A stretch of 64,000 nucleotides of DNA from Lysinibacillus louembei (GTDB taxonomy: Bacteria; Bacillota; Bacilli; Bacillales_A; Planococcaceae): contig NZ_CP137624.1 in the NCBI RefSeq assembly GCF_033880585.1, forward strand, positions 372,001 through 436,000, in the 5' to 3' direction. Position 1 is the first letter of the stretch; each line of letters opens with the position of its first letter. Positions 10,971-46,694 of the stretch are shown here, one piece after another. The position numbers and the translations under genes were made by a program. Under the pieces are notes generated by a model. The model was not told the origin of the DNA and did no database searches. It worked only from the letters and a program-made list of their open reading frames with translations.

Positions 10971-10993
10971 ACCTCTCACCTTATTCTACTAAT

Positions 10994-12385: not shown

Positions 12386-12408
12386 TATAATCACCTATTT
12401 TTCATATT

Positions 12409-13278: not shown

Positions 13279-13284
13279 TTTATT

Positions 13285-14244: not shown

Positions 14245-14279
14245 ATTACCCCTCAATTCTATATTCTACTTCTCTTTTT

Positions 14280-14307: not shown

Positions 14308-14337
14308 TCTGCTAGAGATTGTTATTTTTGTTTATAT
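14289..14337 (-). terminator. 22-bp perfect hairpin at the end of rmlD
   Basis: Bases 14289-14310 and 14316-14337 are perfect reverse complements (22 bp), with the loop GCTAG. The rmlD stop codon (14312-14314) lies in the loop. The arm is T-rich on the minus strand (GTTATTTTTGTTTATAT). It probably terminates or attenuates the upstream part of the glycan operon. Confidence 0.65.
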
Positions 14338-15160
14338 AATCATTCAAAGCATCTTTCCAATGTCTTCTAGCACCAAATCCATTAATTCGCAACGATAAAT
14401 CTCCTAATACTGAATACGCAGGTCGTTTTGCAGGTCTTGGGAATTGGTCTGAAGTCAATGGATTTACCTTTATATCTTTATTAGCTAATTTAAAAATTTC
14501 CTGAGCAAATTCATACCATGAGCATGTCCCACTATTTGTACAATGATAAATACCATACTTTTTAGTTTGTACTAGCTCTATTAAAAATTGTGCTAAATCT
14601 ACTGTATAGGTTGGGGAACCGACTTGGTCATGAACAACGCCTAGTTCAGATTTTTCTTCAGCTAGTTTGAGCATTGTTTTAACAAAGTTTGGTCCATACT
14701 CACCATAAACCCATGCTGTACGCACAATAAAGTATTTAGTATTAAGCGTTTGTGTTAAAAACTCTCCTGCATACTTTGATTGACCATACACACCTAGAGG
14801 GTCTACATTCATATATTCAGAATATGGTGTTGTCGCTTGTCCATTAAACACATAGTCTGTGCTAATATAACAAATTTTTGCCCCAACTTTTTCCGCCGCC
14901 ACAGCTAAATTACGTTGTCCTGTTGCATTTACTTGAAAAGCTAGCTCTTCATTCGTTTCTGCTCCGTCCACATTCGTATAAGCTGCTGCATTAATAATAA
15001 TATGTGGTTGAATTTCCTCACATATAGCATTTACTTGGTCCATGTTCGTAATATCTAATTCAGTTTTCGTATATGCAAATAACTCATGCTCACTAACAGT
15101 TAATTGTTTTACCAATTCTTGCCCCAGTTGTCCATTCGCACCCGTTACCATAATTTTCAT
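14312..15160 (-). CDS. rfbD: dTDP-4-dehydrorhamnose reductase
   Basis: 282 residues; the last step to dTDP-L-rhamnose, NADPH-dependent reduction at C4. The Rossmann motif is MVTGANGQLGQEL, the catalytic YxxxK is YGQSKYAGE, and STDYVFNG is the conserved strand. The C-terminus has RPAYSVL, as in the family. ATG at 15160 overlaps the rfbB stop (TAATG), so the two are coupled. The rml order on the minus strand is A, C, B, D. Confidence 0.93.
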   Translation of the reverse strand: MKIMVTGANGQLGQELVKQLTVSEHELFAYTKTELDITNMDQVNAICEEIQPHIIINAAAYTNVDGAETNEELAFQVNATGQRNLAVAAEKVGAKICYISTDYVFNGQATTPYSEYMNVDPLGVYGQSKYAGEFLTQTLNTKYFIVRTAWVYGEYGPNFVKTMLKLAEEKSELGVVHDQVGSPTYTVDLAQFLIELVQTKKYGIYHCTNSGTCSWYEFAQEIFKLANKDIKVNPLTSDQFPRPAKRPAYSVLGDLSLRINGFGARRHWKDALNDYINKNNNL

Positions 15161-16170
15161 TATAGTTTGCCACCATACTGTTCTGTATAATAATTTTGGT
15201 AATCACCTGAAATGATGTTTTCCCACCATTCTTTATTATCTAAATACCATTGTACAGTTTCTTTTAACCCTGTTTCAAATGTATATTTCGGCTCCCAGCC
15301 TAATTCCTGTTGTAGTTTTGTTGGATCAATCGCATAACGTCGGTCATGTCCTAAACGATCTTCTACATATTTAATTAATGTCTCTGGTTTACCAAGTTGC
15401 TTTAAAATTTCCTTTACAACTTCAACATTTGTCTTTTCATTGTGCCCACCAACATTATATACTTCGCCATTTACACCTTTGTGTAAAACTAAATCGATTG
15501 CGCTACAATGATCCAGTACATGTAACCAATCACGTACATTTTTTCCATCACCATAAACAGGCAATTGTTTATCATTCAATGCATTAATAATCATTAACGG
15601 AATTAATTTTTCTGGGAAATGGAATGGACCATAGTTATTAGAACAGCGTGTGATATTAACTGGTAATCCAAACGTTTCATGATAGGCAAGAACTAATAAA
15701 TCTGCCCCAGCCTTACTTGCGCTATATGGGCTATTTGGAGCTAATGGTGTTTGTTCAGTGAAGTAACCTTCTTCACCTAATGAACCATATACTTCATCTG
15801 TTGATACTTGTAAATATTTTTTCACGTTGTACTTCTTTGCAGCATCTAACAGTACTTGTGTTCCTTGAATATTCGTTTGCACAAAGATTCCTGGGTTCGT
15901 AATACTACGATCCACATGTGATTCCGCAGCAAAATTAATAACAGCATCCACCTTATCACCAATCAGCTGGTCCATCATTGCTACATCTGTAACATCAGCT
16001 TTAACAAATTGATAATTTGATTTTCCTTCAGATTGTTTTAGATTTTCTAAATTCCCTGCATATGTTAAAGCATCTACATTAACAATTTTGTATGCAGGGT
16101 ACTTCTCTACCATATAATTAACGAAATTACTACCAATAAAACCAGCGCCACCTGTTACTAGAATTTTCAT
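15160..16170 (-). CDS. rfbB: dTDP-glucose 4,6-dehydratase
   Basis: About 336 residues; converts dTDP-glucose to dTDP-4-keto-6-deoxyglucose, the branch point for both rhamnose and the 3-amino sugar made by the FdtA/B/C-like enzymes. GGAGFIGSNFV lies at the N-terminus; the catalytic region STDEVYGSLG, YSASKAGAD and the substrate loop NNYGPFHFPEKLIP are intact. ATG at 16170 (AAGGA nine bases upstream) is favoured over ATG at 16179, which overlaps the rfbC stop. Confidence 0.94.
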   Translation of the reverse strand: MKILVTGGAGFIGSNFVNYMVEKYPAYKIVNVDALTYAGNLENLKQSEGKSNYQFVKADVTDVAMMDQLIGDKVDAVINFAAESHVDRSITNPGIFVQTNIQGTQVLLDAAKKYNVKKYLQVSTDEVYGSLGEEGYFTEQTPLAPNSPYSASKAGADLLVLAYHETFGLPVNITRCSNNYGPFHFPEKLIPLMIINALNDKQLPVYGDGKNVRDWLHVLDHCSAIDLVLHKGVNGEVYNVGGHNEKTNVEVVKEILKQLGKPETLIKYVEDRLGHDRRYAIDPTKLQQELGWEPKYTFETGLKETVQWYLDNKEWWENIISGDYQNYYTEQYGGKL

Positions 16171-16175
16171 ATTTA

Positions 16176-16739
16176 TCATTCCTTATCTTTGTAAATAAAT
16201 TGTGTTTCTAAATCCTTTAACTTTGGTTGTTCCTTATCTTTATCAGATAGAATCGGATTAGAAATTGGCCATTCTATATTTAAATCCAAATCATTCCATG
16301 CAATGCCGCAATCATGTTTTGGCGAGTAGTAATTATCTACTTTATATAAGAACTCAGTGTTTTCAACTAATGTACAGTAACCGTGCGCAAAGCCTTTTGG
16401 TACGAGTAATTGTCTTTTATTATCCTCACTCAAAATAAACCCTTCCCACTGACCATAAGTAGGAGAGCCTTCTCTAATATCAACAATTACGTCATATACT
16501 GCTCCTCTTGTCACGCGTACTAACTTCGTTTGGGCAAATGGTTCTAGTTGGTAATGTAAGCCTCTTAGAACCCCACTTTCTTTTGACAGAGCATGATTAT
16601 CTTGTACAAAATTAAAAGAAAACCCTTGTGCTTCTAAAAATTGAGTATTATAAGTTTCCATAAAGAAGCCGCGATGATCTCCAAATACCTTTGGCTCAAA
16701 AATAAAAGCATCCTTTAGTTTTGTTTTAATAATATTCAC
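16176..16739 (-). CDS. rfbC: dTDP-4-dehydrorhamnose 3,5-epimerase
   Basis: 187 residues, cupin fold. The family motifs DHRGFFMETY, FVQDNHALSKESGVLRGLHYQ (catalytic His) and VPKGFAHGY are intact. It epimerises dTDP-4-keto-6-deoxyglucose at C3 and C5. It lies 13 bp after rfbA and a few bases before rfbB. Confidence 0.93.
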   Translation of the reverse strand: MNIIKTKLKDAFIFEPKVFGDHRGFFMETYNTQFLEAQGFSFNFVQDNHALSKESGVLRGLHYQLEPFAQTKLVRVTRGAVYDVIVDIREGSPTYGQWEGFILSEDNKRQLLVPKGFAHGYCTLVENTEFLYKVDNYYSPKHDCGIAWNDLDLNIEWPISNPILSDKDKEQPKLKDLETQFIYKDKE

Positions 16740-16752
16740 TATACAGAACCCC

Positions 16753-17625
16753 TTATAGTTTTTTATTTGCCAATTTAATTAAATATTGACCATAACCATT
16801 TTTCTTTAATGGCTCTGCTAACTCTAATAATTGTTCCTTTGAAATATACCCTTTACGGAATGCTATTTCCTCTAAACACGCTACTTTTAAGCTTTGTCGT
16901 CTTTCAATTGTTTCAATGAATGCAGATGCCTCTAAAAGTGACTCATGTGTCCCAGTATCAAGCCAAGCAAATCCACGTCCTAATAACTCTACATGCAGAT
17001 TCCCTGCTTCTAAATAAGCCTTATTCACATCAGTAATTTCAAGCTCTCCACGTGGAGAAGGCTTAATGGATTTTGCAACTTCTACAACGCTATTATCATA
17101 GAAATATAAACCTGTTACAGCATAAGTTGATTTAGGATCTTGTGGCTTCTCTTCAATTGAAATAGCTTTCCCATTTTCATCAAATTCAACTACTCCAAAA
17201 CGTTCAGGATCATTTACATTATAACCAAAAACAGTTGCTCCGTTTTCTCTTGAAGCAGCTCTTTCTAGCATCGAAGTAAATTTATGACCATAGAAAATAT
17301 TATCCCCTAAAATCAATGCTACTGAATCATTACCAATAAACTCTTCACCAATAATAAATGCTTGTGCTAAACCGTCTGGTGAAGGTTGTACTGCATATTC
17401 TAAATGAACCCCTAAATCCTCACCATTGCCTAGTAATTGTTCAAAACGTGGTGTATCTTCTGGTGTTGAAATAATTAAAATTTCCTTGATTCCCGCTAAC
17501 ATTAATACGGATAGTGGATAATATATCATCGGTTTATCATAAATCGGTAACAATTGTTTAGATACCGAGCGCGTTAACGGATATAAGCGTGTGCCACTAC
17601 CACCAGCTAAAATTATTCCTTTCAT
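16753..17625 (-). CDS. rfbA: Glucose-1-phosphate thymidylyltransferase
   Basis: 290 residues. It makes dTDP-glucose from glucose-1-phosphate (supplied by PgcA) and dTTP, and is normally feedback-inhibited by dTDP-rhamnose. It begins [19 protein letters not shown], followed by [27 protein letters not shown] and [10 protein letters not shown]. The C-terminal [14 protein letters not shown] is typical. It starts the rmlACBD block, following gtrA by 12 bp on the minus strand. Confidence 0.95.
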
Positions 17626-20009: not shown

Positions 20010-20019
20010 GGTACCCTCC

Positions 20020-20586: not shown

Positions 20587-20587
20587 T

Positions 20588-26388: not shown

Positions 26389-28110
26389 TCAATATTTTTG
26401 CTTAATTTTGAATTTCAAAATCTTACTCACTTCACACTGATTAATTTTAAAATTAGATATTACCTTCTTTTTAAAATTGCTTTGCCTCGAAGGTATATTT
26501 ATATTATTCGTTGCATATTTTTCACGTATATATTCTGTTTGCTCTATTAGCTCTTGCTTTCTTGTTAAAGCATCCGTTTTTTGAAAAGGAACTTTGTAAA
26601 TAGATGTGATTTTTTCAATATATAAAAAATCATACTGGGTAGAGAGTTTAAGCCAATAATCCCAATCCTCTAAAACCTCCATAGACTCATCCATTCCACC
26701 TAATTTATCATATACCTCTCTCGCAAATAACACAGTTTGAATAGGGAAATAATTTTGTGTTAATAATAATTGTCTATCAAACTTAGAATTAAATTCTATG
26801 CTATAATGTATTTCTTCATAGATATACGGGTTCATAGAAACTAACTTTGTCGGTGTCTCAAATGCAATACTATATGCTATTTTGTAACTAGGATTATTTA
26901 TTAAAGAAGTAACTAATACTTCTATATGGTCTGCATATAATAAATCATCATCATCTAAAAAATTAAAATATTCTCCTGTAGCAAGCGCTAAACCTATATT
27001 AGCTAGTTTTGTTCTACCAACCTTTTCAATTGTAGCATGATACTTAATATTCAAATTTTTAAAGCTCTTCTCCACAAGTTTTTTAGATTTTGGAAAACCA
27101 TCTTCTACAACAATTATTTCGATATTTTGATATGTTTGATTCTTTATTGTAGTCAACGCTTCTCTTAGCATTTCTGGTCTTTGATTCGTTCTTACAATTA
27201 TAGACACAAGAGGGGTTTCAAGCAGTAGGGAATTATGAAATTCATGACCTAGTCTATGAATTTCATAATTCCAACCACAAAAATTTGCTACCAGATTATT
27301 GGGTTTACGTTTAAACATCTTCGAAAAAGATTTTATGAGTATCTGACTCAATTTTAAGTGAAATTTAAAATTTCTATGCTTTATTGCCCATAGTAAGCAC
27401 ATTACATAACCTAAAATAATATCTTTAAAACTTCCATATCTATATCTTAAAAATAAATTACTACCTATTATATTTAATAATTCATTATCTTTGTTAACCT
27501 TACTCTTTTCAAAAGTATAGTGGTAGATAATACTTTGGGGAACATAGTGAATTCGATATCCAGCAGCTCTAATTCTCCAACTTAAATCCACATCTTCCCC
27601 ATACATAAATATTTCTTCATCAAAGCCACCTATCTTTTGAAAGCATTCTCTTCTTACTAATAAAGCAGCTGCGCTACTCCAAGAAACCTCAAGTGTTACG
27701 GGATTATAATGCTTTGGATGTTCATAAGGAAATTGACGAGACTCCCAGGCTCCAACTATTCCCTCATCAATCAAAGCTTGGTTTACTATGTTTATTAATG
27801 TATCTTGATGTAGCTCTGTATCAATATTTAAAAAGTATATATGTGATTGATTAGTTTTGGAAGCTGCAATATTATTAGCAGCCCCAAATCCGATATTTTT
27901 TTCTTGCTTTAAAATCGTGTAGTCTCCAAATTTCTCCTTAAAAATACAACTATTCAATAAATCATATGACTTGTCCTTTGAATTATTATCAACAAATGTT
28001 ATATGAATTTTCTCTAAAGGATAATGTTGTTTTTTTAAAGAATTCAAAAAATCCCCAATCCATCTTTCAGAATTATAGATTACAACAATTATATCTATAG
28101 AAATCTGCAT
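26389..28110 (-). CDS. Protein with two tandem GT2 glycosyltransferase domains
   Basis: 573 residues. The first GT2 domain (about 1-250) has IIVVIYNSERWI, VDNNSKDKSYD, FLNIDTE and FMYGEDVDLSWRIRAAGY. The second (about 298-530) has LVSIIVRTNQRPEML, VVEDGF and FLDDDDLLY. The domains look like different subtypes, the first rhamnosyltransferase-like and the second a general GT2, so the protein may add two successive sugars. It lies 21 bp after the kinase-like/GT2 gene in the operon. Confidence 0.82.
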   Translation of the reverse strand: MQISIDIIVVIYNSERWIGDFLNSLKKQHYPLEKIHITFVDNNSKDKSYDLLNSCIFKEKFGDYTILKQEKNIGFGAANNIAASKTNQSHIYFLNIDTELHQDTLINIVNQALIDEGIVGAWESRQFPYEHPKHYNPVTLEVSWSSAAALLVRRECFQKIGGFDEEIFMYGEDVDLSWRIRAAGYRIHYVPQSIIYHYTFEKSKVNKDNELLNIIGSNLFLRYRYGSFKDIILGYVMCLLWAIKHRNFKFHLKLSQILIKSFSKMFKRKPNNLVANFCGWNYEIHRLGHEFHNSLLLETPLVSIIVRTNQRPEMLREALTTIKNQTYQNIEIIVVEDGFPKSKKLVEKSFKNLNIKYHATIEKVGRTKLANIGLALATGEYFNFLDDDDLLYADHIEVLVTSLINNPSYKIAYSIAFETPTKLVSMNPYIYEEIHYSIEFNSKFDRQLLLTQNYFPIQTVLFAREVYDKLGGMDESMEVLEDWDYWLKLSTQYDFLYIEKITSIYKVPFQKTDALTRKQELIEQTEYIREKYATNNINIPSRQSNFKKKVISNFKINQCEVSKILKFKIKQKY

Positions 28111-28131: not shown

Positions 28132-31100
28132 TTATTTAGAAATTTCTTCTTTTATACTATTTTGAAATACTTCTTTGATTTCTTCGTTATTCATTTTTCT
28201 GTTATTTAAACCATTTGTAGAGAATATATAATCATCATTAATAATTAATTTATTATCCTCATAAAATTGGGATATCGATTTTAACATTAACTTTGGATGA
28301 TATCTAAAATTCAAATAATCTTGCTCTTTTTCTTTTCTCTGTTCGTCAAACATAATATGGTGGTGAATTAATAATGAATTAGGTGAATTCACTAAAAGCT
28401 TACCTTCTTTACGTAATTTATACGAAATGGCTGCATCTTCATAAACATTTGGATAACCTTCAACTATTGGAAACCACCCTTTAAACAAAGTAGCCCCTAC
28501 TGGATTCCAATCAGTAATATACCTTTCTAGTGTACTTAAATCATGTACATTTTTATTAATATTATAAAGTTTAAATTCCACTCTTCCATCGCTTATTTCC
28601 TCAAATCCACCTGTAAACTGTAATGTCTGGTTCGGAAACATTACTCTACAAGTGACTGAACCAATCTTGTCATTTTCTTCTGCTCTAACAAGTAATTCTT
28701 CAATCCAGCCTTCCGTTACCTCAATATCATTATCTAATGAGATATAATAGCTATCTTTTCTTGCATATTTAAGAGCTTCTTTACGTCCTAATGACGGTCC
28801 AATATTTTTATCTGCATATATAACTTTTACATTTGGAATTGGCTCAATATACTTTTGAATAAATTCTACACAAGCTGCTGAAGAGCCATTCTCATATAAA
28901 ATAATTTCATGTGGAATATTTACAGTGTTTTTAATAGATTGTATAGACATTAAGGTTTGATCTTCTTTACCATACGAAACCATGATAAAAGAAATAAATT
29001 TATGAAATGTCCCATTTCTTATATCTCTACGCATTTTAGCTTGATCGCTAATTCGAATTGACATTGCATATTGCTTTTCCTTAACAGTTTCTGAAGTTTG
29101 CTTATCATGGATTCTGTGTTTATATAAAAATTTAGGAATGTGAACAAAAGCACTGTTTGGATAATGGAACGCTACCCTAAGTACCATATCATAATCTTGC
29201 GCTCCATCGTATTCTGAATTAAATATACCAACCTTTTCAAATACATCTCTGCTAATTAATTTAAAATGAGAAGCATACATTCTTACGTCTAAATGATCTT
29301 CAAAAATATTATCCTTTGGAAGATGGTCACAACCAAATCTACCAATCTCCTGTGAGTCATCATTTATATGGATTCTATTTGAAAATGAGTATTTAGTATC
29401 CATTCTCCAATATTTAACTGATTCTTCTACAGCATTTAACATTAAAATATCATCGCAGTCTAAGAAAGCAATTATATCTCCAGTTGCTTTGGCTAAACAA
29501 ACATTTTGAGTAGCAGATATCCCCATATTTTTTTCATTTTTATAAATGCGAACAAAATCATAATGTCTAAATTTATTCAAAATTGTTTCAACTTCTGGCA
29601 TTGGTGAACAATCATCAACAAGAATAACCTCTTTATTTTCATATGTTTGATTGACTGCAGACAGTATACAACTTTCTAAATAGTCTATATTATTATAAAC
29701 AGGAATAATTATAGAAACCTTTCTTGTTCCTTCTTTTTCTTGCACCACATCTTCTTTTTTTAGCATATCTTTAGAATTGACTGTTTTTAAATATACCTTT
29801 TTTGCAATACCTCTTAATGGAGAAGGTAACTTTTTAGCAGAATTGAATGTAAATTTTTTCAAATCTCGATTTACTACTCTCAGTCGATTTTTACCTTTTC
29901 TAGCTGTTCTACCAATCATCCTAAGTGACCCTGTCAATTTCCACGATCGTGAGTTTATTATAGATTCTATTTCTTTATTTGCTAGTTGATTTTCAAATTT
30001 CATTTTATTAATTTCATTTTTCATAGATAAAATCTCATTTTCTAAATAAGTTACTTTGAGCCTTTTATCTGTCAAACCCTGATTCATTTCTGCAATCTTT
30101 TCATTTAACTTGGCTATCTCCTGTTTCAAGAATATCTTCTCATTTTCACTATTTGACACTACTTCCTTCAAGTTTTCTCCGGAAACACCTTGAATAACTT
30201 TCAATCTCACTTTTACATATAAATCTTGGTTTATATTTGGGGTGAGATTATCTATATATATAATAGGTTTTTCTCCTAAACTTACTAGTTTCAAAGAATT
30301 TGTAGAGGTTAATTTAATTAAATCGCCTGCTATCCTCAAATCTTTATAACCATCTTCAGAAGATATAGTTTTAATTAAATTTCTCTTCTCCTTGATATCA
30401 TTGTTGGAATAAATCTCTATTTTGTCTAAGTTGATCACTGATTGTTGGTAACACGGTTCTAACCTGAGTGTATTGCTTGATAAATTCTTTAATTTCAAAC
30501 AATATTCTTCATATTCATTATTTAATGCAATAGGTAGCATGTCATAATTTAGTTCCTCAGAATTATCCTCTACAAAAATATGCATAAAATCAGATGGAAA
30601 TTGTTCATTATATATGTTATCTATCGTTGCAATATTCTTTAAATAATTGGACTTATACTCTCCGAAATCTTTTCCAACATACTTTAAAAAATTCTTCTCC
30701 ATCTCCTCATAATAAGGAATATCAGTTACTTCCATTTCCAACACTGCAAATATATCTTCTATCAGAAGTTCATCACCAAAATGACCAAAATATTTTGTCT
30801 TAAAGACCAATAATGCCCTATAAATTATATAATTAACAGGTACAGGAAACCTAAATATCCATTCATAATCTATTGTTGTAAATTTTGTATTATTTTCTAT
30901 CAAAATTATATTATCAAAATTAAAATCAACATTTGCTAAATTTAAAGCTTTATGACCTTCTAGCCTTGAAACATCACCAAATATATTAATAAATTCTGTC
31001 GTTTGATAAAATTCACATTGTTCTTCTTTAAAAAATAAAGATTTATACCATTTAAGTTGCTCTATAAATCCATTTTTATTATTATCAAAAAGCTTTTGAG

Positions 31101-31356
31101 CTAAAACTTCATCGAAGCTATTTCCTATTACAAAAGGAAATACAATTCCTTTATCTTGCATGTCTATTTCAACTGGATTAAAAGAAGTTTTCTTGTATTC
31201 TTCATAATTAGCATATATACTTTCTAGATGCCTCTTCGATTTTTCAGAGTAGGCTTCTTTTATTACATATTTTGAATTTCCTTCTTCGTATATTATAGTC
31301 TTTAGTTGAAATTCTTCTTTACGATTAACACTATATTTCACACTATTAATTTCCAA
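28132..31356 (-). CDS. Kinase-like domain, coiled coil and two GT2 domains in one protein; candidate glycan chain terminator
   Basis: 1074 residues, starting at TTG (31356) with AAGGAGG seven bases upstream. Residues 1-200 show APH/choline-kinase-like features: VIK33 as the ATP lysine, D144 and N149 in VDFNFDNII as the catalytic loop, and D163 in TIDYEW as the metal-binding aspartate. A coiled coil follows at about 395-455, then the SRSWKLTGSLR linker common before transferases. Next are GT2 domain 1 (from about 546: SIIIPVYNN, VDDCSP, FLDCDDIL) and GT2 domain 2 (about 780-1010: FIMVSYGKEDQ, SLDNDIEV). The size and neighbours recall WsaE and the MTase-kinase-coiled-coil protein WbdD. The kinase call is mine from motifs. 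Confidence 0.7.
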   Translation of the reverse strand: MEINSVKYSVNRKEEFQLKTIIYEEGNSKYVIKEAYSEKSKRHLESIYANYEEYKKTSFNPVEIDMQDKGIVFPFVIGNSFDEVLAQKLFDNNKNGFIEQLKWYKSLFFKEEQCEFYQTTEFINIFGDVSRLEGHKALNLANVDFNFDNIILIENNTKFTTIDYEWIFRFPVPVNYIIYRALLVFKTKYFGHFGDELLIEDIFAVLEMEVTDIPYYEEMEKNFLKYVGKDFGEYKSNYLKNIATIDNIYNEQFPSDFMHIFVEDNSEELNYDMLPIALNNEYEEYCLKLKNLSSNTLRLEPCYQQSVINLDKIEIYSNNDIKEKRNLIKTISSEDGYKDLRIAGDLIKLTSTNSLKLVSLGEKPIIYIDNLTPNINQDLYVKVRLKVIQGVSGENLKEVVSNSENEKIFLKQEIAKLNEKIAEMNQGLTDKRLKVTYLENEILSMKNEINKMKFENQLANKEIESIINSRSWKLTGSLRMIGRTARKGKNRLRVVNRDLKKFTFNSAKKLPSPLRGIAKKVYLKTVNSKDMLKKEDVVQEKEGTRKVSIIIPVYNNIDYLESCILSAVNQTYENKEVILVDDCSPMPEVETILNKFRHYDFVRIYKNEKNMGISATQNVCLAKATGDIIAFLDCDDILMLNAVEESVKYWRMDTKYSFSNRIHINDDSQEIGRFGCDHLPKDNIFEDHLDVRMYASHFKLISRDVFEKVGIFNSEYDGAQDYDMVLRVAFHYPNSAFVHIPKFLYKHRIHDKQTSETVKEKQYAMSIRISDQAKMRRDIRNGTFHKFISFIMVSYGKEDQTLMSIQSIKNTVNIPHEIILYENGSSAACVEFIQKYIEPIPNVKVIYADKNIGPSLGRKEALKYARKDSYYISLDNDIEVTEGWIEELLVRAEENDKIGSVTCRVMFPNQTLQFTGGFEEISDGRVEFKLYNINKNVHDLSTLERYITDWNPVGATLFKGWFPIVEGYPNVYEDAAISYKLRKEGKLLVNSPNSLLIHHHIMFDEQRKEKEQDYLNFRYHPKLMLKSISQFYEDNKLIINDDYIFSTNGLNNRKMNNEEIKEVFQNSIKEEISK

Positions 31357-31367
31357 AATAATCCTCC

Positions 31368-32276
31368 TTAATCAATACTAGCAACAACAAGAAAAGAGTT
31401 TGAGAAAAAAGAAAAATTATCATTCATGTTTAATGAGTCATATACAACATCTTCATTAAATAACGTAAATCTATTGTTATCATAATTATGGATTAAATCT
31501 CTAAGTTCGCCTATTTTAGGTTTTCTTTTATCTGAAAAGATTTGGAAGGGTAATTTATAATCCGGAAATGGATAATAAAAGTCAATATTCCTTATACCAC
31601 ACTCCTCTAGTAGTACTTGTAATTCATACTTAGAGAAAGTACGAACCTTATTTGACTCTCTGTAGCCCTCAATTGAATCGAAAAATTTCCCAGTGTGATC
31701 TTCCCTTGCGCCAGCCCAATACTTCAAGCCATATCTATTTTCAATTGCAATAAATAATTTCCCATTAGGTTTTAGAAGGCTTTTTACATATTTCAAAAAG
31801 TCTTGAAATGGCTTATCTGAATTTGAAAAAGATGGTGCATATTCTAGGACTCCTATTAATGTTATATAATCAAATTGATATTCAAATTCCATTTCATTAA
31901 AGTTACCAACAAATATTTCAATATTTTTTGAATTTTGATGCCGATAAGCATTAATAAGTGAGCGTCTTTTTGATAATTCTACACATGTTACACTATTGAC
32001 TTTTCTGCTTATTGCTCCAGTAATTGCCCCACAACCTGCTCCAATTTCTAAAGCCCTATAATTATTATCAAATGGATACCATTCAATAATATGCTCTCTA
32101 TATTTTGATAAATGATAAAGAATTGGCCATCTTGTATCATTTTTTATAATCTCATCAAATGTATTATAATTTTGTACAATCTCTAACAATTCATTTTCTA
32201 TCTCACCATCACTATATTGGTCTTCGCCAGTATAGTAAGTTAAATTTAATTTTACGTTCCCAATTTGTTCAATCAT
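31368..32276 (-). CDS. Class I SAM-dependent methyltransferase of the glycan locus
   Basis: About 302 residues. SAM-binding motif I is ALEIGAGCGAITGAI, the next acidic position is in CVELSKRRS, and YITLIGVLEYA is motif IV. A family-typical IENRYGLKYWAGAREDHTG segment follows. ATG at 32276 (AGGTGA five bases upstream) is preferred over GTG at 32285, which lies inside that site. It sits between wzt and the kinase-like/GT2 gene. O-methylation of the terminal sugar, or of a terminal phosphate, would cap the chain as in WbdD and WsaE systems. Confidence 0.8.
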   Translation of the reverse strand: MIEQIGNVKLNLTYYTGEDQYSDGEIENELLEIVQNYNTFDEIIKNDTRWPILYHLSKYREHIIEWYPFDNNYRALEIGAGCGAITGAISRKVNSVTCVELSKRRSLINAYRHQNSKNIEIFVGNFNEMEFEYQFDYITLIGVLEYAPSFSNSDKPFQDFLKYVKSLLKPNGKLFIAIENRYGLKYWAGAREDHTGKFFDSIEGYRESNKVRTFSKYELQVLLEECGIRNIDFYYPFPDYKLPFQIFSDKRKPKIGELRDLIHNYDNNRFTLFNEDVVYDSLNMNDNFSFFSNSFLVVASID

Positions 32277-32285
32277 GTTTTTCAC

Positions 32286-33557
32286 CTATTGTATAGTAGA
32301 TACTTCAATTTTAGAATTCAAATCAAAGTACCCTACAGTATTTTTGGAAGATATTACTTGAAACGAAATAATATCATATAAGCGATGATATACTACAAAC
32401 TCTTCATCCTGAAAGCCAGTACACCCCAAGGATAAGAGATAATCTCCTGCTCGAAGGCTCATTTTTTGGCTAAATGAAGCCTCCAATATTATACCTTCTT
32501 CTATTGCATCAATTGTAATATTTTCTATCATTGTATTAGTACCAGTAATTTCAGTGCCTTTCAAATCTTTAATTGTAAATGCAAAAATAGGGAAGTCTAA
32601 CATCTCATTAAATTGGACTCTTATTTTAATTTGACAGTCTTTGTCTTTCTCAATAGTTGAAGTCAATTCACCAAGTTCATCAAAAAGCCCGAAATCAACT
32701 ATACTTGCTTTACTATTTCCATAGTTTAAATGCTCAGGGTTAATTTGATAAAATTTTTTCCATTTTTGAAGTGAATCTTCCTTTTTAATTTGCTCTTTTG
32801 TGATTTTAGGCTTATGTAAATTAACAACAAGCTTTTTAAACAAATCCACGCCTTCTTTTGCATTATGCACACCTAAAGACTCACCATTATTTAATATCAA
32901 AACATTATCACAATATTTAATTACGCTACTTAAATCATGTGTTACTAAAAGAATAGTTTTTCCTTGTCTTTTAAATTCTTCAAATTTCTTATAACATTTA
33001 ACTTGGAAAAACATGTCTCCAACTGCTAGTGCTTCATCCACTATTAAAATGTCTGCATCAACATTGATTGCTACAGCAAAAGCTAAACGAACATACATAC
33101 CACTCGAATAAGTTTTTACAGGTTGATCAATAAAATCACCAATATCTGCAAATTTTTCGATTTCTGCAAATCTCATTTTCATTTCTTCTTCAGAAACTCC
33201 TAGTATAGAACCATTCAAAAAAACATTTTCTCTACCTGTATATTCTGGATTAAATCCACTTCCTAACTCTAAAAGTGCTGCTACTCGTCCATTGATATGA
33301 ACTTCTCCTTCTGTAGCTGTTAAAGTACTTGCTAATATTTGTAGCAATGTACTCTTCCCTGAACCATTTTGACCCACAATACCAAATGTTTGTCCCTGCT
33401 GCACCTCAAAATCAACTTTATTCAAAGCACTAAATTCACGATAATATTTCTTTTGTCCAAATGAAAAAGATTGCTTTAATCGATCTATCGGCTTTTCATA
33501 TATTTGATATTTTTTTGATAGATTTTTTACACTAATCGAAATAGTATTAGAGGACAT
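32286..33557 (-). CDS. wzt: ABC transporter ATP-binding protein with C-terminal glycan-binding domain
   Basis: About 423 residues. Walker A is GQNGSGKST, the signature is YSSGMYVRLAFAVAI and Walker B is ILIVDEALAVGD. Beyond residue 260 is a beta-rich Wzt C-terminal domain (about 285-420) that in O9a-type systems recognises the capped chain end. ATG at 33557 follows GGAAGGG and overlaps the wzm end by 11 nt. Presence of this tail argues that export waits for a terminating modification. Confidence 0.9.
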   Translation of the reverse strand: MSSNTISISVKNLSKKYQIYEKPIDRLKQSFSFGQKKYYREFSALNKVDFEVQQGQTFGIVGQNGSGKSTLLQILASTLTATEGEVHINGRVAALLELGSGFNPEYTGRENVFLNGSILGVSEEEMKMRFAEIEKFADIGDFIDQPVKTYSSGMYVRLAFAVAINVDADILIVDEALAVGDMFFQVKCYKKFEEFKRQGKTILLVTHDLSSVIKYCDNVLILNNGESLGVHNAKEGVDLFKKLVVNLHKPKITKEQIKKEDSLQKWKKFYQINPEHLNYGNSKASIVDFGLFDELGELTSTIEKDKDCQIKIRVQFNEMLDFPIFAFTIKDLKGTEITGTNTMIENITIDAIEEGIILEASFSQKMSLRAGDYLLSLGCTGFQDEEFVVYHRLYDIISFQVISSKNTVGYFDLNSKIEVSTIQ

Positions 33558-34359
33558 CTGCAAAACCCTTCCTTGTTTTTTTAAACCATACATATCCTAG
33601 TATGGAAACCATCGCCCCTATAGCTGTAACTGTAATCAATGATTCCCAATGTGGAAACTCTCCCCAAATAATTGCTCCTCTCATATCTTCAACCACATAA
33701 GTAATTGGGTTTAAAGAATAGAAAAATTGAAATTCTTCTGGAATTGAAGTTCTAGGGTAGAATATTGGGCTCACAAACATCAATGCGGGAATTACTACTG
33801 CAACAATTTGCCCAATATCTCTAATATATACAGCCAGAGAAGCTAAAAACCATGTAATGCCTAATGAAAAAAGTATTAATGGAAAGATAATTATTGGAAA
33901 TAACAATGCAGTCCAATGAAAAGTCCCCATTAACATCAACATTGCTAACAAAAGTATTAAATAGCTAATAAATGCTTGAAAAAGAGCTGATCCTAAAGTT
34001 ACAATAGGCAGAATCTCTAAAGGAAATACTACTTTTTTTACATAGTTACTATTAGAAATAATTAGACTGGGTGCTCTAGAAATAACATCAGAAAACACAT
34101 TAAAAACAAATAATCCTGTAAATAAAAGTAAGGCAAACTCTGCTTTATTTGTTTCCCCTGTTGTTCCCCACCTTGCCTGAAATATAACACTAAATACAAA
34201 AGTATATATTGTTAACATCATTAAAGGAGTTATAAATGACCAAACTATCCCTAAATAAGAACCTTTATATCGATTAGAGATCTCTCTTCTTGTAAATTGA
34301 TTAATTAACGATTTTTGAGCAAATAAGTACTTTATTTCTCCTATTATTGAATTTATCAT
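33547..34359 (-). CDS. wzm: ABC-2 type polysaccharide export permease
   Basis: 270 residues, six membrane helices, with the family-typical N-terminal region LINQFTRREISNRYKGSYLG and C-terminal NPITYVVEDMRGAI. It exports undecaprenyl-linked glycans together with Wzt; TagG is the teichoic acid counterpart. ATG at 34359 follows AAGGAG. Confidence 0.9.
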   Translation of the reverse strand: MINSIIGEIKYLFAQKSLINQFTRREISNRYKGSYLGIVWSFITPLMMLTIYTFVFSVIFQARWGTTGETNKAEFALLLFTGLFVFNVFSDVISRAPSLIISNSNYVKKVVFPLEILPIVTLGSALFQAFISYLILLLAMLMLMGTFHWTALLFPIIIFPLILFSLGITWFLASLAVYIRDIGQIVAVVIPALMFVSPIFYPRTSIPEEFQFFYSLNPITYVVEDMRGAIIWGEFPHWESLITVTAIGAMVSILGYVWFKKTRKGFADVL

Positions 34360-34439: not shown

Positions 34440-35987
34440 TTAACTTATTTTATTATCTATCTTTTTGACATTCACTAATATCATACCTATAAGTATCATC
34501 ATAGGCGCAGCTACTCCAGCCAATGTATCATTAAACATCGCTTGACACAAAAATGCCAGTATAGCTACCACTAGTACAGTATCACTATTTCTTCCATCAA
34601 ATACTTTCTTTAAGCTTTGTATCACTACAAATACTATTAATACAAGAAATGTTGCAAATCCAATAATTCCAGTACCATATAAAACACCTAAATACATATT
34701 ATGTGGTTTATCCACAATTACTGACTCTGTTTCAAGGTTTGCTCTCGCATCCTCATTATAGTGTGGGAAATTATACATTAACGTATCTAAGCCATAGCCA
34801 AAAATAGGACGATCCTTTACTAAATCTAAAATATACGTCCAAATATAAATACGTCCAGATCCAGCGCCTACACCACTCCCTGCTGGAGCAGGAAGTTCAA
34901 ATGTCGCATCAGCTGCGTATACTCGTTTACTCAAGCTAAACAGTTCGTTATTAAAAGATACCGCTTCTTCTTTATATGGATTATTTGATACAAAGAAACC
35001 TACCGACTCATCCCATACCTTTGAATTTTGTTCAGCTAATACATGAATACTTACAGATGCAATGATGATAAATCCTATTACTTGCACTAAAGCTCCCACT
35101 CGTTTTTCATTTTTAAAAGCAATCCATAAAATGAAAGGTAGCATCACAACAATTGTTAAGAAACCACTTGTTGATAGTGACATCAGTACAATTAATATTG
35201 ATATAACAGCCATTACAAAGTTAAGAATCTTAATAGATACCTTTTGATCAATTAGACCTTTTGTTAAAAACATTGCTGCCATAATAGCAAACATACCACT
35301 CATATAGTTGCCATGATTTAATGTACCTAACAAATAGGAACCCTCTGAAATGCCAGATCCACTTGGTAGGAACATAGAAACCATTTTTTTAGCCCAGTTA
35401 TGCTGCAAAAGATCATTATTTGTAAAATTCAATACAACAATTACAAAGTTAATAATAGTAAACGGAATAAAGGCATATGTAATGTATGTCACAGCATTTT
35501 TAGGATATTTAATATTTAATGCAATAAATATCAGTGCTACATAACATAACCAACTAATGGCGCCATCTGAACGATTGTATAAACCATTTAGTGCAATATT
35601 TATTGTAGGTGAAGTAATTGTAGAAATAACAATAGTTACTACTAATATGCCTAAAACATAGTTTAATTTTGTTTTATAAATTGTTCCTCCCATAAAGAAG
35701 ATTTTCGATAGTAGTAATACCCCACTGACAATCGTAATCACTAATACAAATAAAGATTTAAAATGAGTAAACAATTCACCTTTTGTACCTGACCCCAATA
35801 CTCCCACATTAGAAATGAGGGGGCTTGTTACTTGTTCGATATGAGCCATTACAATTAATGGTGCTACTCCAATTATTAAAAGTAATAATCTAAATATCCA
35901 TTTATCAATATTCATACGTGATTGAATATTTTCTTTTTCATCACTCAATGAATTCTTTTTATTAAGCTCTTCGTAAAACGACGCCAT
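34440..35987 (-). CDS. O-antigen-ligase-like protein, candidate S-layer oligosaccharyltransferase
   Basis: 515 residues with about 12 membrane helices. The large extracytoplasmic loop contains the Wzy_C/WaaL-type motif GYGLDTLMYNFPHYNE and DKPHNMYLGVLYGTGIIG, where the histidine after KP is the conserved catalytic-type residue. In Geobacillus slg clusters the protein of this type (WsaB) transfers the finished glycan to the S-layer protein. Here it is two genes away from the S-layer gene. A polymerase role is an alternative, but an ABC-exported chain would not need one. Confidence 0.78.
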   Translation of the reverse strand: MASFYEELNKKNSLSDEKENIQSRMNIDKWIFRLLLLIIGVAPLIVMAHIEQVTSPLISNVGVLGSGTKGELFTHFKSLFVLVITIVSGVLLLSKIFFMGGTIYKTKLNYVLGILVVTIVISTITSPTINIALNGLYNRSDGAISWLCYVALIFIALNIKYPKNAVTYITYAFIPFTIINFVIVVLNFTNNDLLQHNWAKKMVSMFLPSGSGISEGSYLLGTLNHGNYMSGMFAIMAAMFLTKGLIDQKVSIKILNFVMAVISILIVLMSLSTSGFLTIVVMLPFILWIAFKNEKRVGALVQVIGFIIIASVSIHVLAEQNSKVWDESVGFFVSNNPYKEEAVSFNNELFSLSKRVYAADATFELPAPAGSGVGAGSGRIYIWTYILDLVKDRPIFGYGLDTLMYNFPHYNEDARANLETESVIVDKPHNMYLGVLYGTGIIGFATFLVLIVFVVIQSLKKVFDGRNSDTVLVVAILAFLCQAMFNDTLAGVAAPMMILIGMILVNVKKIDNKIS

Positions 35988-36001: not shown

Positions 36002-36499
36002 TTATTGCATATTTTCCATTTGTAATAACATTCCTTGAACTTGCTCTTGATACTCAGGGTAATCTTCTGGAGCCCAACCAGCATCTATACAACGTTGTAA
36101 AACTATTTTAGCTTCTTCATATTTTTCAGCAGAAAATAGCATTTCTCCAAACTGTAACATGAATATAGGTCGCTCAACATTGTATGGGTTGATATCTAAT
36201 GCTTTTTGCATAAATACTACTGCTGCGGGAAAATCCCCATTTTGCCCAGCTATTAGTGCAGCTAAGTAGTTGACCATTTCCGAATCAGCTTTTTCAGTAA
36301 TTAAGTCTGAAATCAATGCTTGTGCATCACTGTAATTACCCTCTTCATATAATTGAATCGCTTGCTGATACAAAATATCTTCAGTGCTAAATACTTCGTC
36401 TTGTTTTTTTGCTAAAACATTAGCGACTATTAAACCGCCTACTACAAACATTACAAAACTAGCTAATATGTATTTCCTAGTACTTTCTTTTATATTCAT
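36002..36499 (-). CDS. Membrane-anchored TPR protein
   Basis: 165 residues: one N-terminal membrane helix (about 11-30), then about three TPR-like units (LYQQAIQLYEEGNYSDAQAL, VFMQKALDINPYN, KYEEAKIVLQRCIDAG). Many Gram-positive O-antigen-ligase-like enzymes carry TPRs fused at their C-terminus, so a separate TPR partner directly upstream of the ligase gene fits a two-part transferase. This pairing is inference. It is the promoter-proximal gene of the glycan cluster. Confidence 0.75.
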   Translation of the reverse strand: MNIKESTRKYILASFVMFVVGGLIVANVLAKKQDEVFSTEDILYQQAIQLYEEGNYSDAQALISDLITEKADSEMVNYLAALIAGQNGDFPAAVVFMQKALDINPYNVERPIFMLQFGEMLFSAEKYEEAKIVLQRCIDAGWAPEDYPEYQEQVQGMLLQMENMQ

Positions 36500-36760: not shown

Positions 36761-39259
36761 TTAGTTATCTCTTGAAGAAATTTTACCTGTCGCTGGGTCA
36801 TATTTAAATTTATAAGTTTTACCTTTATAAGAAATGCTGAAGTTTTCGCTACCAGCTGTTAGTTTAGGGTCATTGAAGTATACATATACAACTTTGTTAT
36901 CTGTAGAATCAGATGCTTTAGTAGCATTAGCAATTTCAGATACTACAACATCATTAGCAGAAACAGCCTCTGTAAATGTTAATGTGATAGAATCAGCAGT
37001 TGTTTTAGTTGTATCAGCAATTGAGAAGTAAGAAGTGCTAGCACCTGCTAAGAAAGTTACAGCTTTAGTAACTGACGTTAAACCAGATAAACCAGAATTA
37101 GTTGGTGTTGCAGTTACACGCACATTTGTTGCATCACCTTTAACTTTAATTGTAGCTTCAGTACCAGTAGTTGCAATATTTCTTACAAAACTTTGTGTGC
37201 TATATGCAGATACTTTACCTAATTCTGTTACACCATCTACATCATAAACTGTTACTTCTGATGCATCAGTTCTTACAGTAAATTGAACTGATGTTGAAGC
37301 GTTAGTTACCTCAGCAGCTGAACGTGGTTTACCATTTTGGTCAGATAATTGGTAAGTAAATGTAGCTAACTTAGCTGAACCGAAAGTAGTAACTTCTTTC
37401 TTTTCCTCATTTGTAACTTTTAATTCACTTGTGTATTCACCTGCTTTAACAGCACGGAAGTAAGTAATCTCAGAAGTTACTTGAAGATCTTTAGAATCTA
37501 GACCTACTTTAGAGCCTGTTTCCAAGAATACGATTGGTGTTGCAAATGAATCAACAACAGATTGAGTTACAGTAAATAGAGCTTTACCGTCTTTATCAGT
37601 AGTTAAAACGAAAGTATCATTTGTAGTACGTGGAACTTCTACACCGTCTGCATCGTATACTTTTAATGTGCCAAGATTATTTGTTGTTGCTTCTTCAAAT
37701 GTAACTTTAACTGGTGAATTCGGAACCACTTTACCCGCTTTAGTTTTTAAAGTAACAACATAATCACGTCCACCGATTTCATCAGTTGGAGCTGCTTTGT
37801 GTACTGCAGCAGTTTGTTTCCCTTCAGCAGTAACAGTTAAATCAAATACAGATTCTTTTTCGAACTTAACTGTAGAACCAGTTGCTTGTAATGCTGTTGC
37901 ATCATATTTAGCGTTTGTTCCTGGATTGTTAACGAATACGATTGGTGTTACTGATGCATCAGAACCAGTTAAAACTAAATTAGCTTTACCTGTAGCATCT
38001 AATTTAACAACACCTACTTTATATCCACCAGTAGTGTACTCATAAGCAAAGTTTCCAGTAGAAGCTGTATCACCAGTAGTAGCTAAACCTAAAAATTCAA
38101 CATCACGAACAGCTTTTTCAGGAGCAACGTTTAAATTCTCTTTGAATGCTACGTAAACTACTTCGTTATCATCACCAGTAATTTGGTAAACTTTTTGCTC
38201 ACCATTAGCTAAAGTAGTTTCTTTAGTAACATCTGCAATAGTTAATGATGTATTCCAGTATACTTTTGCTGCTGCTTTTGAACCTGGTTTGTTTACAGCG
38301 TAAGCATTTACTGTATCAACTTCACCTTGAGAACGAGTGTAAGTATAAGTAGCTACGCCTTCTGCATTTGTTTTAACTGTTTCAGTGATTTGTGGCACGA
38401 TAGTAGTATCGTTAGCTAATTTCTCATGGAAAATATCGAATTTCACCGCGATGTTTTCAGCAGATTCGCCTTCTTTAACAGTTACTTTTGCAGTTAAAGT
38501 TACTTTCTCACCAAATTTACCTTGGATTGAAGTTTCAGCTAATTCGATTTTCTCTGGTACTACTTTTGAACCTTCTACTTCAGCGCCTGAGATTTCAGCG
38601 TTGATTGTTTTGTATAAGAAAGTAGCGAATTGACCGCGAGTTGTGTCACCTTTTGGATTGAAGTTAGCAACTGTTGGGTTTGTGATATCGTAGTAATCTA
38701 ATACAGAGATTGCGGAACGAGCTTCAGCTTTAGCTTGAGCTAAGTCTTTAACGTCGCCTTTGAAATCTTGTTCAGCTACGAATTCTTCTAAGCTAACACC
38801 TTTAACAGTGTTAACCATACGTACTAATACGATAGCCATGTTTTCGCGAGTGATTGAATCGCTAGCTAAAAGGTTACCGTTAGAACCTACGAATACGCCT
38901 GCTTCTTTAACTACAGAAGCGTATTTTAATAATTCTTCGTTAGAAGCTGTTGTTAAATCGTTGAAAGCTGGGCTAGTTTTCCAGTTTGAAGCTGGAGCAT
39001 AACCTTCAGTTTCTAAGTATTTACCTAATAATTTAACTACATCAGAACGTGATAAAGTTTTATTAGGTTTGAAAGTGCCATCTGGGTAGCCGTTGATTAC
39101 GCCAGCATCAACTAATGCGTTGATTGCTTCTTCGTGTGTGTTACCTGAGATGTCGCTTAAGTTTGCTGCTGAAGCAACTGGTACGATTGCTGATGCTACT
39201 AAAGTAGCTGTCGCAGCTGTTGCTACGAATTTTTTGTATTTCTTTGGTTGGTTAGCCAT
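36761..39259 (-). CDS. SLH-domain S-layer protein
   Basis: 832 residues. The signal peptide is about 1-31 (cleavage after VASA). Three SLH domains occupy roughly 33-220: AINALVDAGVINGYPDGTF, then FVGSNGNLLASDSITREN, then FNPKGDTTRGQFA. They bind pyruvylated secondary wall polymer. The remainder is a series of beta-rich, Thr/Val-rich Ig-like modules, as in Lysinibacillus S-layer proteins. AGGAGG lies ten bases before ATG. Skewed, repetitive codon use suggests very high expression. It is shorter than the ~1250-residue SlpA of L. sphaericus. It is the likely acceptor of the neighbouring glycan system; Ser/Thr sites are plentiful but specific sites cannot be assigned. Confidence 0.93.
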   Translation of the reverse strand: MANQPKKYKKFVATAATATLVASAIVPVASAANLSDISGNTHEEAINALVDAGVINGYPDGTFKPNKTLSRSDVVKLLGKYLETEGYAPASNWKTSPAFNDLTTASNEELLKYASVVKEAGVFVGSNGNLLASDSITRENMAIVLVRMVNTVKGVSLEEFVAEQDFKGDVKDLAQAKAEARSAISVLDYYDITNPTVANFNPKGDTTRGQFATFLYKTINAEISGAEVEGSKVVPEKIELAETSIQGKFGEKVTLTAKVTVKEGESAENIAVKFDIFHEKLANDTTIVPQITETVKTNAEGVATYTYTRSQGEVDTVNAYAVNKPGSKAAAKVYWNTSLTIADVTKETTLANGEQKVYQITGDDNEVVYVAFKENLNVAPEKAVRDVEFLGLATTGDTASTGNFAYEYTTGGYKVGVVKLDATGKANLVLTGSDASVTPIVFVNNPGTNAKYDATALQATGSTVKFEKESVFDLTVTAEGKQTAAVHKAAPTDEIGGRDYVVTLKTKAGKVVPNSPVKVTFEEATTNNLGTLKVYDADGVEVPRTTNDTFVLTTDKDGKALFTVTQSVVDSFATPIVFLETGSKVGLDSKDLQVTSEITYFRAVKAGEYTSELKVTNEEKKEVTTFGSAKLATFTYQLSDQNGKPRSAAEVTNASTSVQFTVRTDASEVTVYDVDGVTELGKVSAYSTQSFVRNIATTGTEATIKVKGDATNVRVTATPTNSGLSGLTSVTKAVTFLAGASTSYFSIADTTKTTADSITLTFTEAVSANDVVVSEIANATKASDSTDNKVVYVYFNDPKLTAGSENFSISYKGKTYKFKYDPATGKISSRDN

Positions 39260-45008: not shown

Positions 45009-45078
45009 TTATATTCTCCCTTCTATTTTATCACAATTACAATTATGCATTCGGCTTACGTTTACTGCGGTTTCGGGG

Positions 45079-45084
45079 TATAAT
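45079..45084 (+). promoter_or_regulatory. Candidate -10 of ywqB-ywqA
   Basis: TATAAT on the plus strand, 34 nt upstream of the ywqB start. A weak -35 (TTACGT) lies 17 nt upstream. It is divergent from the Rpn pseudogene. Confidence 0.4.
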
Positions 45085-45117
45085 GGAAGGAACGACTTTT
45101 TTAGGGGAGAGACTATT

Positions 45118-46683: not shown

Positions 46684-46694
46684 GGAGTTTTTAT

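Follow-up and report, generated by a model that had tools for sequence, protein, structure and literature searches.

The gene cluster around P0001

In the window, by which we mean the whole 64,000-nucleotide stretch of DNA analysed here, the gene P0001 (28132..31356; this and all features below lie on the (-) strand) is an ORF with a TTG start. Its product of 1074 aa has the order kinase-like domain, beta domain, coiled coil, GT2, GT2. A GGAGG Shine-Dalgarno sequence (31363..31367) is found six bases upstream of the TTG, which itself lies 11 bases past the stop codon of P0002, a separate gene for a methyltransferase (MT) of 305 aa (31368..32285; Pfam Methyltransf_12, 6.1e-12). An earlier note on this DNA had placed the two ORFs between 28132 and 32276; both are present there, and its upper limit corresponds to an internal ATG of the MT gene, whose GTG start extends the ORF to 32285.

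The same note had put the MT directly upstream of P0001 and a wzt gene with a glycan-binding tail before it, an order that the ORFs and Pfam matches bear out. Specifically, wzt (32286..33593) encodes an ABC ATPase with a C-terminal glycan-binding tail (Pfam Wzt_C, 3.1e-40), and residues 20-417 of its product match 8dku (2e-66). It is preceded by the ABC permease gene wzm (33547..34359; Pfam ABC2_membrane, 2e-29) and by a gene for a Wzy_C family protein (34440..35987; Pfam Wzy_C, 5.7e-23), which, by analogy with S-layer glycan clusters (PMC2943079), is likely a glycan-to-protein ligase. Further upstream are a protein with TPR matches in a WsaA-like position (36002..36499) and an SLH-domain S-layer protein (36761..39259; SLH, 5e-17), the likely acceptor. 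Two genomes from the same family repeat this series of SLH, TPR, Wzy_C, wzm, wzt, MT, and kinase, with differing glycosyltransferases (GTs) downstream.

Downstream of P0001, the window encodes a second double-GT2 protein of 573 aa (26389..28110; Pfam Glycos_transf_2 in two stretches), a set of rmlD, rmlB, rmlC, and rmlA-like genes (14312..17625), assigned to dTDP-rhamnose synthesis from Pfam families and gene order with their exact functions presumptive, and a Bac_transf protein (10994..12394; 5.2e-72) that is likely the initiating sugar-1-phosphate transferase.

Domains of P0001

The kinase-like domain spans residues 1-238 (30643..31356), as delimited by the AlphaFold model, Foldseek, and conserved residues. 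Over residues 1-230, the ten-residue blocks of the model have pLDDT values of 93-98, except for 191-200 at 83. The earlier note had likened this region to APH/choline-kinase folds, and with residues 1-250 tested as a kinase fold, the top PDB matches that Foldseek returned for the window model were the choline kinase LicA (4r7b, E 4.3e-5, prob 1.00) and APH(3')-Ia. The protein kinases Syk, ULK4, and MSK1 are also among the 50 matches listed. The query TM-scores of the 22 matches with E <0.001 are low (0.21-0.30), partly because the Foldseek query includes two further domains.

The residues named in the earlier note were quoted correctly: K33 in VIK (codon 31258-31260), D144 (30925-30927) and N149 (30910-30912) in VDFNFDN, and D163 (30868-30870) in IDYEW. 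In an alignment of 93 kinases, which includes the window and counts one gene twice (L002 and L020), D144, N149, and D163 are kept in 91, the remaining two (L023 and L082) being truncated at the sequence end; K33 is likewise kept in 91 of the 93. The kinase profile was iterated on its own set, and all 93 members had already been recovered by the first-pass profile. The motif D-x4-N-x(8,22)-[IVLF]-[DN]-x-[EQ]-[WF] occurs in 88/93 kinase ORFs versus 0/880 other ORFs longer than 250 aa from the same loci, which rules out a chance motif. These residues are kept despite a median pairwise identity of the kinase domain of only 26.6% (71 loci).

A Pfam scan of P0001 found no kinase family up to E 0.1 and returned only the two GT2 stretches that the earlier note had described; no Pfam kinase model is among the 25 families listed, out of 27, for the 56 members of alignment A5; and searching PDB sequences with the kinase profile gave no meaningful match. 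Together, the Lys, the D-x4-N motif, the putative metal-binding Asp, and the predicted fold place the P0001 N-terminus in the APH/choline-kinase superfamily.

The kinase-like domain is followed by a beta-rich domain (residues 257-389; 30190..30588), all-beta in the model and moderately confident (pLDDT about 58-85). It occupies the position that the available text of PMC11231755 gives to an Ig-like CBM in Klebsiella pneumoniae O7 ORF6. Next comes the coiled coil, placed by the earlier note at about 395-455 and seen in the AlphaFold model as a single helix of residues 393-467 (29956..30180), a candidate length ruler. Its 77-residue heptad run was matched by 0/2000 composition shuffles of residues 390-470. 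Our first proxy for coiled coils was unspecific (65/84 real versus 58/84 shuffled sequences at 28 residues), while a stricter rule of at least 50 residues was satisfied by 21/84 versus 2.6% of shuffles; these counts cover 84 of the 93 kinases, with tails <60 aa excluded. Heptad runs of at least 50 occur in only four of the 33 fused homologues measured, and, because the coiled coil is this patchy, a ruler is not universal.

A basic linker containing SWKLT (residues 468-545; 29722..29955) could possibly contact the membrane. The first GT2 domain covers about residues 546-774 (29035..29721; Pfam 548-709) with DCDD at 633, and this region matches chondroitin synthase over residues 544-774. The second, with approximate limits of about residues 785-1040 (28237..29004) and DND at 875, corresponds to the second GT2 stretch; its PDB matches, at 788-918, are weak.

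Coupling of methyltransferase, kinase, and Wzt across genomes

We examined 80 loci, taken as the best MT matches out of at least 559 genome stretches encoding an MT relative; because they were chosen in this way, the set leans towards the window. The kinase is in the same gene as the MT or in the next one in 79/80 loci (36 fused, 43 adjacent), with one MT (L067) standing without a kinase in the DNA examined. Some of the fusions have the WbdD order. A Wzt glycan-binding tail is encoded in 77/80 of these MT-selected loci and wzm in 71/80. A GT2 lies within the kinase ORF in 17/80, and one locus (L012) has the same split as the window; the Wzt-tail and GT2 counts come from custom-built profiles rather than Pfam. 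The earlier note had described the parts of known terminators as redistributed here. Kinase, coiled coil, and GTs do share P0001 while the MT is separate, but we reject the joining of kinase and GTs in one chain as a unique trait, given these 17 loci and the split in L012.

The median pairwise identity is 53% for the MT and 51% for the Wzt tail, versus 27% for the kinase. This comparison covers 71 loci and excludes L002, L016, L017, L019, L023, L032, L054, L061, L067, and L082, as well as loci missing a part in the DNA examined. A single quick tree, computed without L002 (the same gene as L020) and L019 (degenerate), leaves 32 of 91 inner branches open and carries a long-branch warning for L011. 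The extension labels on this tree for L017, L058, L060, L093, and L096 were assigned from tail length alone, and the tails of the last four contain RgpF, not GT2. A scan of viral contigs found no relative.

Among characterised systems, Klebsiella O7 ORF6 (PMC11231755) is the nearest, not WbdD or WsaE. According to the available text of that paper, ORF6 adds phosphate and then methyl to a glycan mimic in vitro, and its D441A variant is inactive. The same text calls this termination strategy widespread. It lists alpha- and gammaproteobacteria, cyanobacteria, Gluconacetobacter, and Methanoculleus as carriers of orthologues or homologues of ORF6, and it describes a cap-binding Wzt tail with Wzm/Wzt as general for terminated O antigens; the words "Gram-positive" and "Firmicutes" do not occur in it. 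As far as the system is described there, ORF6 and the window have in common an MT, an unannotated APH-like kinase, a coiled coil, and two GT2 modules, and both clusters contain wzm, wzt, and rhamnose genes. The order of beta domain, coiled coil, and GT2 modules in P0001 (from the model, heptads, and Pfam, respectively) also agrees with the O7 type. They differ in that ORF6 is one chain, whereas the window MT is separate from P0001, and in that the ORF6 cluster serves an LPS O antigen, whereas the window cluster is Gram-positive with an S-layer gene.

Homology of the MT and kinase to ORF6 was assessed through a P. asturiensis fused protein (L106, 1457 aa) and the published ORF6 residues. L106 carries all six ORF6 SAM-binding residues (Y28, Y66, G91, G93, E112, Y158) with identical numbering, and its kinase Asp is at 443, compared with 441 in ORF6. 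P0002 is 36% identical to the MT of this protein over 292 columns, and its equivalents of the six residues are Y24, Y57, G82, G84, E103, and Y149. For the kinase, hhalign of the window family against a profile of L105, L106, L016, and L017 gave prob 98.5 and E 2.7e-15, with D144 and D163 placed opposite L106 Asp residues. The link between the window and L106 kinases rests on profiles, because BLAST of the window against L106 gave no kinase match. At the position of K33, the ATP-site lysine, L106 has His and L105 has Arg; L105 also carries Glu in place of the second Asp and does not match the motif. Consequently, the catalytic set is not fully common to the proteobacterial type.

A candidate chain terminator for an S-layer glycan

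Computation establishes the architecture of P0001, its kinase fold and conserved catalytic residues, the constant MT-kinase-Wzt coupling, and the homology to the O7 type. We consider it probable that P0002 and the P0001 N-terminus together form a two-part terminator that acts on an ABC-exported glycan chain, most likely an S-layer glycan. This reading, already proposed in the earlier note, is strengthened by the MT-kinase fusions in WbdD order, by the near-constant Wzt glycan-binding tail, and by homology to the type of O7 ORF6, which is active in vitro.

In the mechanism we propose, the GT2 domains of P0001 and neighbouring GTs would build the repeat. The kinase would then add a phosphate to the last sugar at the non-reducing end of the lipid-linked chain. 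P0002, presumably assembled with P0001, would methylate that terminal phosphate, whereupon growth would stop. The Wzt tail would recognise the capped end for export through Wzm/Wzt, and the Wzy_C protein would transfer the exported glycan to the S-layer protein. With its helix of about 75 residues, the coiled coil may space the capping site from the polymerising sites, and we propose that a minimum chain length would therefore be set. The module would bring together in one operon candidates for the kinase, MT, ruler, and export check of Gram-positive S-layer glycans, with the chain-stopping enzyme joined to the chain-building enzymes via a rod-like spacer. For a domain that has no Pfam kinase match and accompanies the MT in nearly all loci examined, the module also points to a likely function.

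Alternatively, the terminator may be real but act on a capsule or secondary cell-wall polymer instead of an S-layer glycan, which we regard as unlikely. Most of the 80 loci come from Clostridia or Campylobacterota, so that the module probably serves several glycan classes, and no S-layer, TPR, or Wzy_C match lies near it in L022, L077, L103, and L104. However, published S-layer clusters (PMC2943079) have an arrangement similar to that of the window (SLH, TPR, Wzy_C, wzm, wzt, GTs, rml, initiator), and the window's SLH-to-kinase block recurs in the two same-family genomes.

A small alcohol as the kinase substrate, like the choline of LicA, is rather improbable, and so is a role of the two activities in decorating the chain instead of terminating it, with the MT methylating a sugar hydroxyl as in WsaE. 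LicA is the best Foldseek match, and the 2-O-methyl cap made by the WsaE MT contains no phosphate (PMC2943079); but no LicC-type gene was recognised in the cluster, where the positions of the two NTP_transferase genes suggest galU and rmlA, the MT-kinase and Wzt-tail coupling is close to constant (79/80 and 77/80 loci), and the O7 type phosphorylates a glycan mimic in the available text of PMC11231755. A catalytically dead domain serving only as a scaffold or sugar-binding part would agree with an activity that is predicted only, the lack of a Pfam kinase match for the window domain, and the lysine missing from L105 and L106 of the proteobacterial type, but is very unlikely given that K33, D144, N149, and D163 are kept although median pairwise identity is so low.

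The parallel to WbdD and WsaE drawn in the earlier note needs two corrections: O7 ORF6 is nearer than either, and the kinase is APH-like. E. coli O9a WbdD (PMC3482155) resembles the window in its MT/kinase partners, coiled coil, and a Wzt with a carbohydrate-binding module, and WbdD can be aligned with the model of L044, a fused homologue, across 552 columns (4azt, E 1e-9) and 561 columns (4ax8). In contrast, the WbdD kinase is eukaryote-like and WbdD has no GT, whereas P0001 has two GT2 domains; WbdD is also absent among the 50 Foldseek matches listed for the window model. With LicA and APH as best matches, the kinase fold differs, and membership of the WbdD family was rejected. Geobacillus WsaE (PMC2943079), likened by description, shares an S-layer glycan cluster and an MT linked with two GTs, but in WsaE these form one chain, whereas the window MT is a separate gene. 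That review describes methylation only for WsaE, and the word "kinase" does not occur in it; it states that methylation by WsaE in vitro was independent of chain length and that control of length may need another factor (PMC2943079).

What appears new at this locus is that the form is Gram-positive and linked to an S-layer, that the MT has its own gene and the kinase, putative ruler, and GTs share one chain, and that it belongs to a wide kinase family lacking a Pfam kinase match. Among the papers listed by literature searches, judged mostly by title and the opening of the abstract, none was an earlier report of this MT-kinase module in Gram-positives. A phosphate-capped S-layer glycan is itself already known: the available text of PMC6254364 describes a 2,3-cyclophospho-rhamnose at the non-reducing end in C. 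difficile SLCT-11, speculates that the terminal phosphate acts as in O9a, and names no enzyme for the cap. As described there, SLCT-11 has a rhamnose-rich, ABC-exported Gram-positive S-layer glycan, features that the glycan of the window would share. We suggest, tentatively and as a view that may well fail, that phosphate-based caps made by this wide, Pfam-less kinase family (Bacillota, Campylobacterota) are the standard means of ending, measuring, and export-licensing Gram-positive S-layer and related Wzm/Wzt glycans. The MT and Wzt tail would then stay constant while the kinase drifts with the terminal sugar, and the SLCT-11 cyclophospho-rhamnose would result from that chemistry, either directly or as a derivative.

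Predicted kinase fold and catalytic residues of P0001

The 1074-residue protein P0001 is encoded on the minus strand at 28132-31356 by an ORF with a TTG start, which has GGAGG 6 bases upstream and begins 11 bases after the stop of the methyltransferase (MT) gene encoding P0002. An earlier note had assigned a kinase-like domain to its N-terminus, and the coordinates, ORFs and residues quoted there all proved correct against the window sequence. Pfam and NCBIfam detected the two GT2 domains of P0001 and, outside these, only weak matches of the coiled-coil or adaptor type, with no kinase family among the matches. Similarly, no kinase family was found among the 25 listed of the 27 Pfam families in a scan of 56 family members.

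We modeled P0001 residues 1-480 with AlphaFold, using 55 homologues as input. Residues 1-230 are predicted with a pLDDT of 93-98 per ten-residue block (except 191-200, at 83), followed by a beta-rich domain (257-389; block pLDDT about 58-85) and a single long helix (393-467). The top Foldseek match of this model in the PDB is the choline kinase LicA (E = 4.3e-5, probability 1.00), with APH(3')-Ia next. Macrolide, spectinomycin, homoserine and methylthioribose kinases, a few protein kinases and a chain of the KEOPS complex are also among the 50 matches listed. For the 22 matches with E < 0.001, the query TM-score is 0.21-0.30, which is low partly because the query includes two more domains. Of the quoted kinase residues, K33 is conserved in 91 of 93 aligned kinases, and so are D144, N149 and D163, for which the two exceptions (L023 and L082) are sequences ending at the DNA edge; E165 is conserved in 91/93 and W166 in 90/93.

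The coiled coil, a candidate length ruler, is strong in the window, its heptad run being reached by 0 of 2000 shuffles. Across the kinase family, it is patchy: runs of at least 50 residues occur in 21 of 84 members under a stricter rule (versus 2.6% of shuffles), and under a looser rule in only 4 of the 33 fused homologues measured.

Distribution and divergence of the methyltransferase-kinase module

Narrow kinase queries match 3/200 genomes of the family, 4/261 of the order, 4/398 of the class and 8/299 of the phylum, the window's genome included each time, and the matched genomes include MT-kinase fusions and longer chains with extra domains. Three further genomes of the family encode the kinase as a stand-alone coiled-coil protein right behind the MT gene and Wzt. 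An MT alignment scan found relatives of the MT encoded in at least 559 GTDB genome stretches, of which we examined the best 80 (65 Bacillota, 9 Campylobacterota, 2 others and 4 unassigned). In these best 80 loci, the kinase is fused to the MT in 36 and is its neighbouring gene (same strand, gap < 300 bases) in 43; in the remaining one, L067, none was found within the locus DNA covered. A Wzt tail is encoded in 77/80, wzm in 71/80, and a GT2 within the kinase ORF in 17/80. Of the 84 loci having both genes, the window and the narrow-query genome loci included, 70 have the Wzt gene ending less than 300 bases upstream of the MT.

Mapped onto a 94-row MT tree, the fused and split states require at least 8 changes and the kinase C-terminal extension at least 11; five of the extension labels (four of them RgpF) were set by tail length alone. 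The window lies inside a Bacilli group whose other members are all unfused.

Pairwise comparison over 71 loci (2485 pairs) gave a median kinase identity of 26.6%, against 52.8% (MT), 50.7% (Wzt tail) and 64.3% (Wzt ATPase), with MT identity exceeding kinase identity in 2485/2485 pairs. Among these loci, the divergence of the kinase is roughly double that of its partner MT and of the Wzt tail. From the identity medians, we infer that kinase specificity may track the terminal sugar, the methylating and cap-reading parts staying constant.

At L067 8001-10942, the ORF following the family MT resembles a nucleotide-sugar dehydratase by eye. The kinase chain carries an RgpF (rhamnan synthesis) domain instead of GT2 in L058, L060, L093 and L096. 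Genome G757 holds both an ordinary MT-kinase (L015) and a degenerate homologue (L019, 166-2544) with a C-terminus that is cytidylyltransferase-like by eye. The MT, whole or partial, is also encoded in three unannotated gut "Bacteriophage sp." records (MT836085.1, MT839147.1 and MT836982.1), which may be bacterial contigs rather than phage.

Comparison with Klebsiella O7 ORF6 and WbdD

A 2024 report describes Klebsiella O7 ORF6, a CHARACTERISED enzyme, as an MT joined to an APH-like kinase that had gone unannotated, with an Ig-like CBM, a coiled coil and two GT2 modules making up the rest of the chain; in the in vitro experiments it presents, a mimic was phosphorylated and methyl-phosphorylated, and the reaction was abolished by D441A (PMC11231755). 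We compared ORF6 through its published residue positions, with L106 as its proxy. A plasmid search matched 5 records, 2 across most of the query, and yielded L106, a 1457-aa Pseudomonas asturiensis plasmid protein encoded behind an ABC permease and ATPase gene. L106 has 6/6 published ORF6 SAM-binding residues at identical numbering and two GT2 stretches; the kinase Asp is residue 443, compared with 441 in ORF6. In L016 and L017, from the window's phylum, the six residues match at a constant offset of -6. In L105 (Citrobacter braakii plasmid, 649 aa), the offset comparison did not recover the SAM-binding residues, and the kinase motif pattern fails, with Glu replacing the second Asp.

P0002 aligns to the L106 MT with 36% identity over 292 columns (E = 2e-53). 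The L106 kinase is undetected by the window kinase with BLAST alone; profile-profile alignment of window-type kinases (n = 16) with those of L105, L106, L016 and L017 gives a probability of 98.5 and E = 2.7e-15, placing D144 and D163 opposite their L106 counterparts. L016 and L017 also have Lys at the K33 position; L106 has His there and L105 has Arg.

For L044, a fused Clostridium puniceum homologue (model pLDDT 86.9), WbdD entries 4azt (552 columns) and 4ax8 (561) are the sole matches above 350 columns among the 50 PDB matches listed, with E about 1e-9. We read this long alignment as a match of the two domains to WbdD in a shared order, and the target TM-score of 0.27-0.28 indicates a difference in geometry or in kinase fold. 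The window module is probably a variation on a known type of chain terminator, with a wide kinase family behind it.

The L105 plasmid, typed conjugative, carries at 207-15046 rml genes, an ABC transporter, the MT-kinase-like protein and GTs, which makes it a mobile element bearing an O-antigen-like cluster.

Gene neighbourhood, export and precedent

On the minus strand, the gene order is UDP-glucose dehydrogenase, WecG-type GT, SLH gene, TPR, Wzy_C, wzm, wzt, MT and P0001, followed by a second double-GT2, a GtrII protein flanked by two proteins without a Pfam match, and, further on, sugar-modification genes, rml-like genes, GT2s, a Bac_transf initiator, and galU- and galE-like genes. Two genomes of the family (L101 and L102) are syntenic with the window across UDP-glucose dehydrogenase, SLH, TPR, Wzy_C, wzm, wzt, MT and kinase, and L100 (same genus) and L021 (Schinkia azotoformans) retain the TPR-to-kinase part of this block; the GTs 3' of the conserved block vary. 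Residues 20-417 of the window Wzt match an ABC transporter including its C-terminal domain (8dku), which we take to be Aquifex Wzt. The Aquifex domain is described as binding 3-O-methyl-mannose and not mannose (PMC9445017).

The gene set resembles rules published for S-layer glycan clusters (PMC2943079). Phosphate capping of an S-layer glycan has precedent, because that of Clostridioides difficile SLCT-11 carries 2,3-cyclophospho-rhamnose at its end; the authors liken this terminal phosphate to O9a and state that they knew of no earlier S-layer glycan described with phosphate in its terminal group (PMC6254364). Our literature search, mostly of titles and abstract openings, found no report of the kinase family in Gram-positives.

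Near the rml genes, window 18921-21004 encodes a DegT aminotransferase, a NeuD-like acetyltransferase and a weakly cupin-like protein, presumably the pathway set for 3-acetamido-3,6-dideoxyhexose, which suggests that this sugar could be present in the glycan. On the plus strand, window 44773-49445 encodes a 636-aa ORF without a Pfam match, then an SNF2 helicase with DUF3670.
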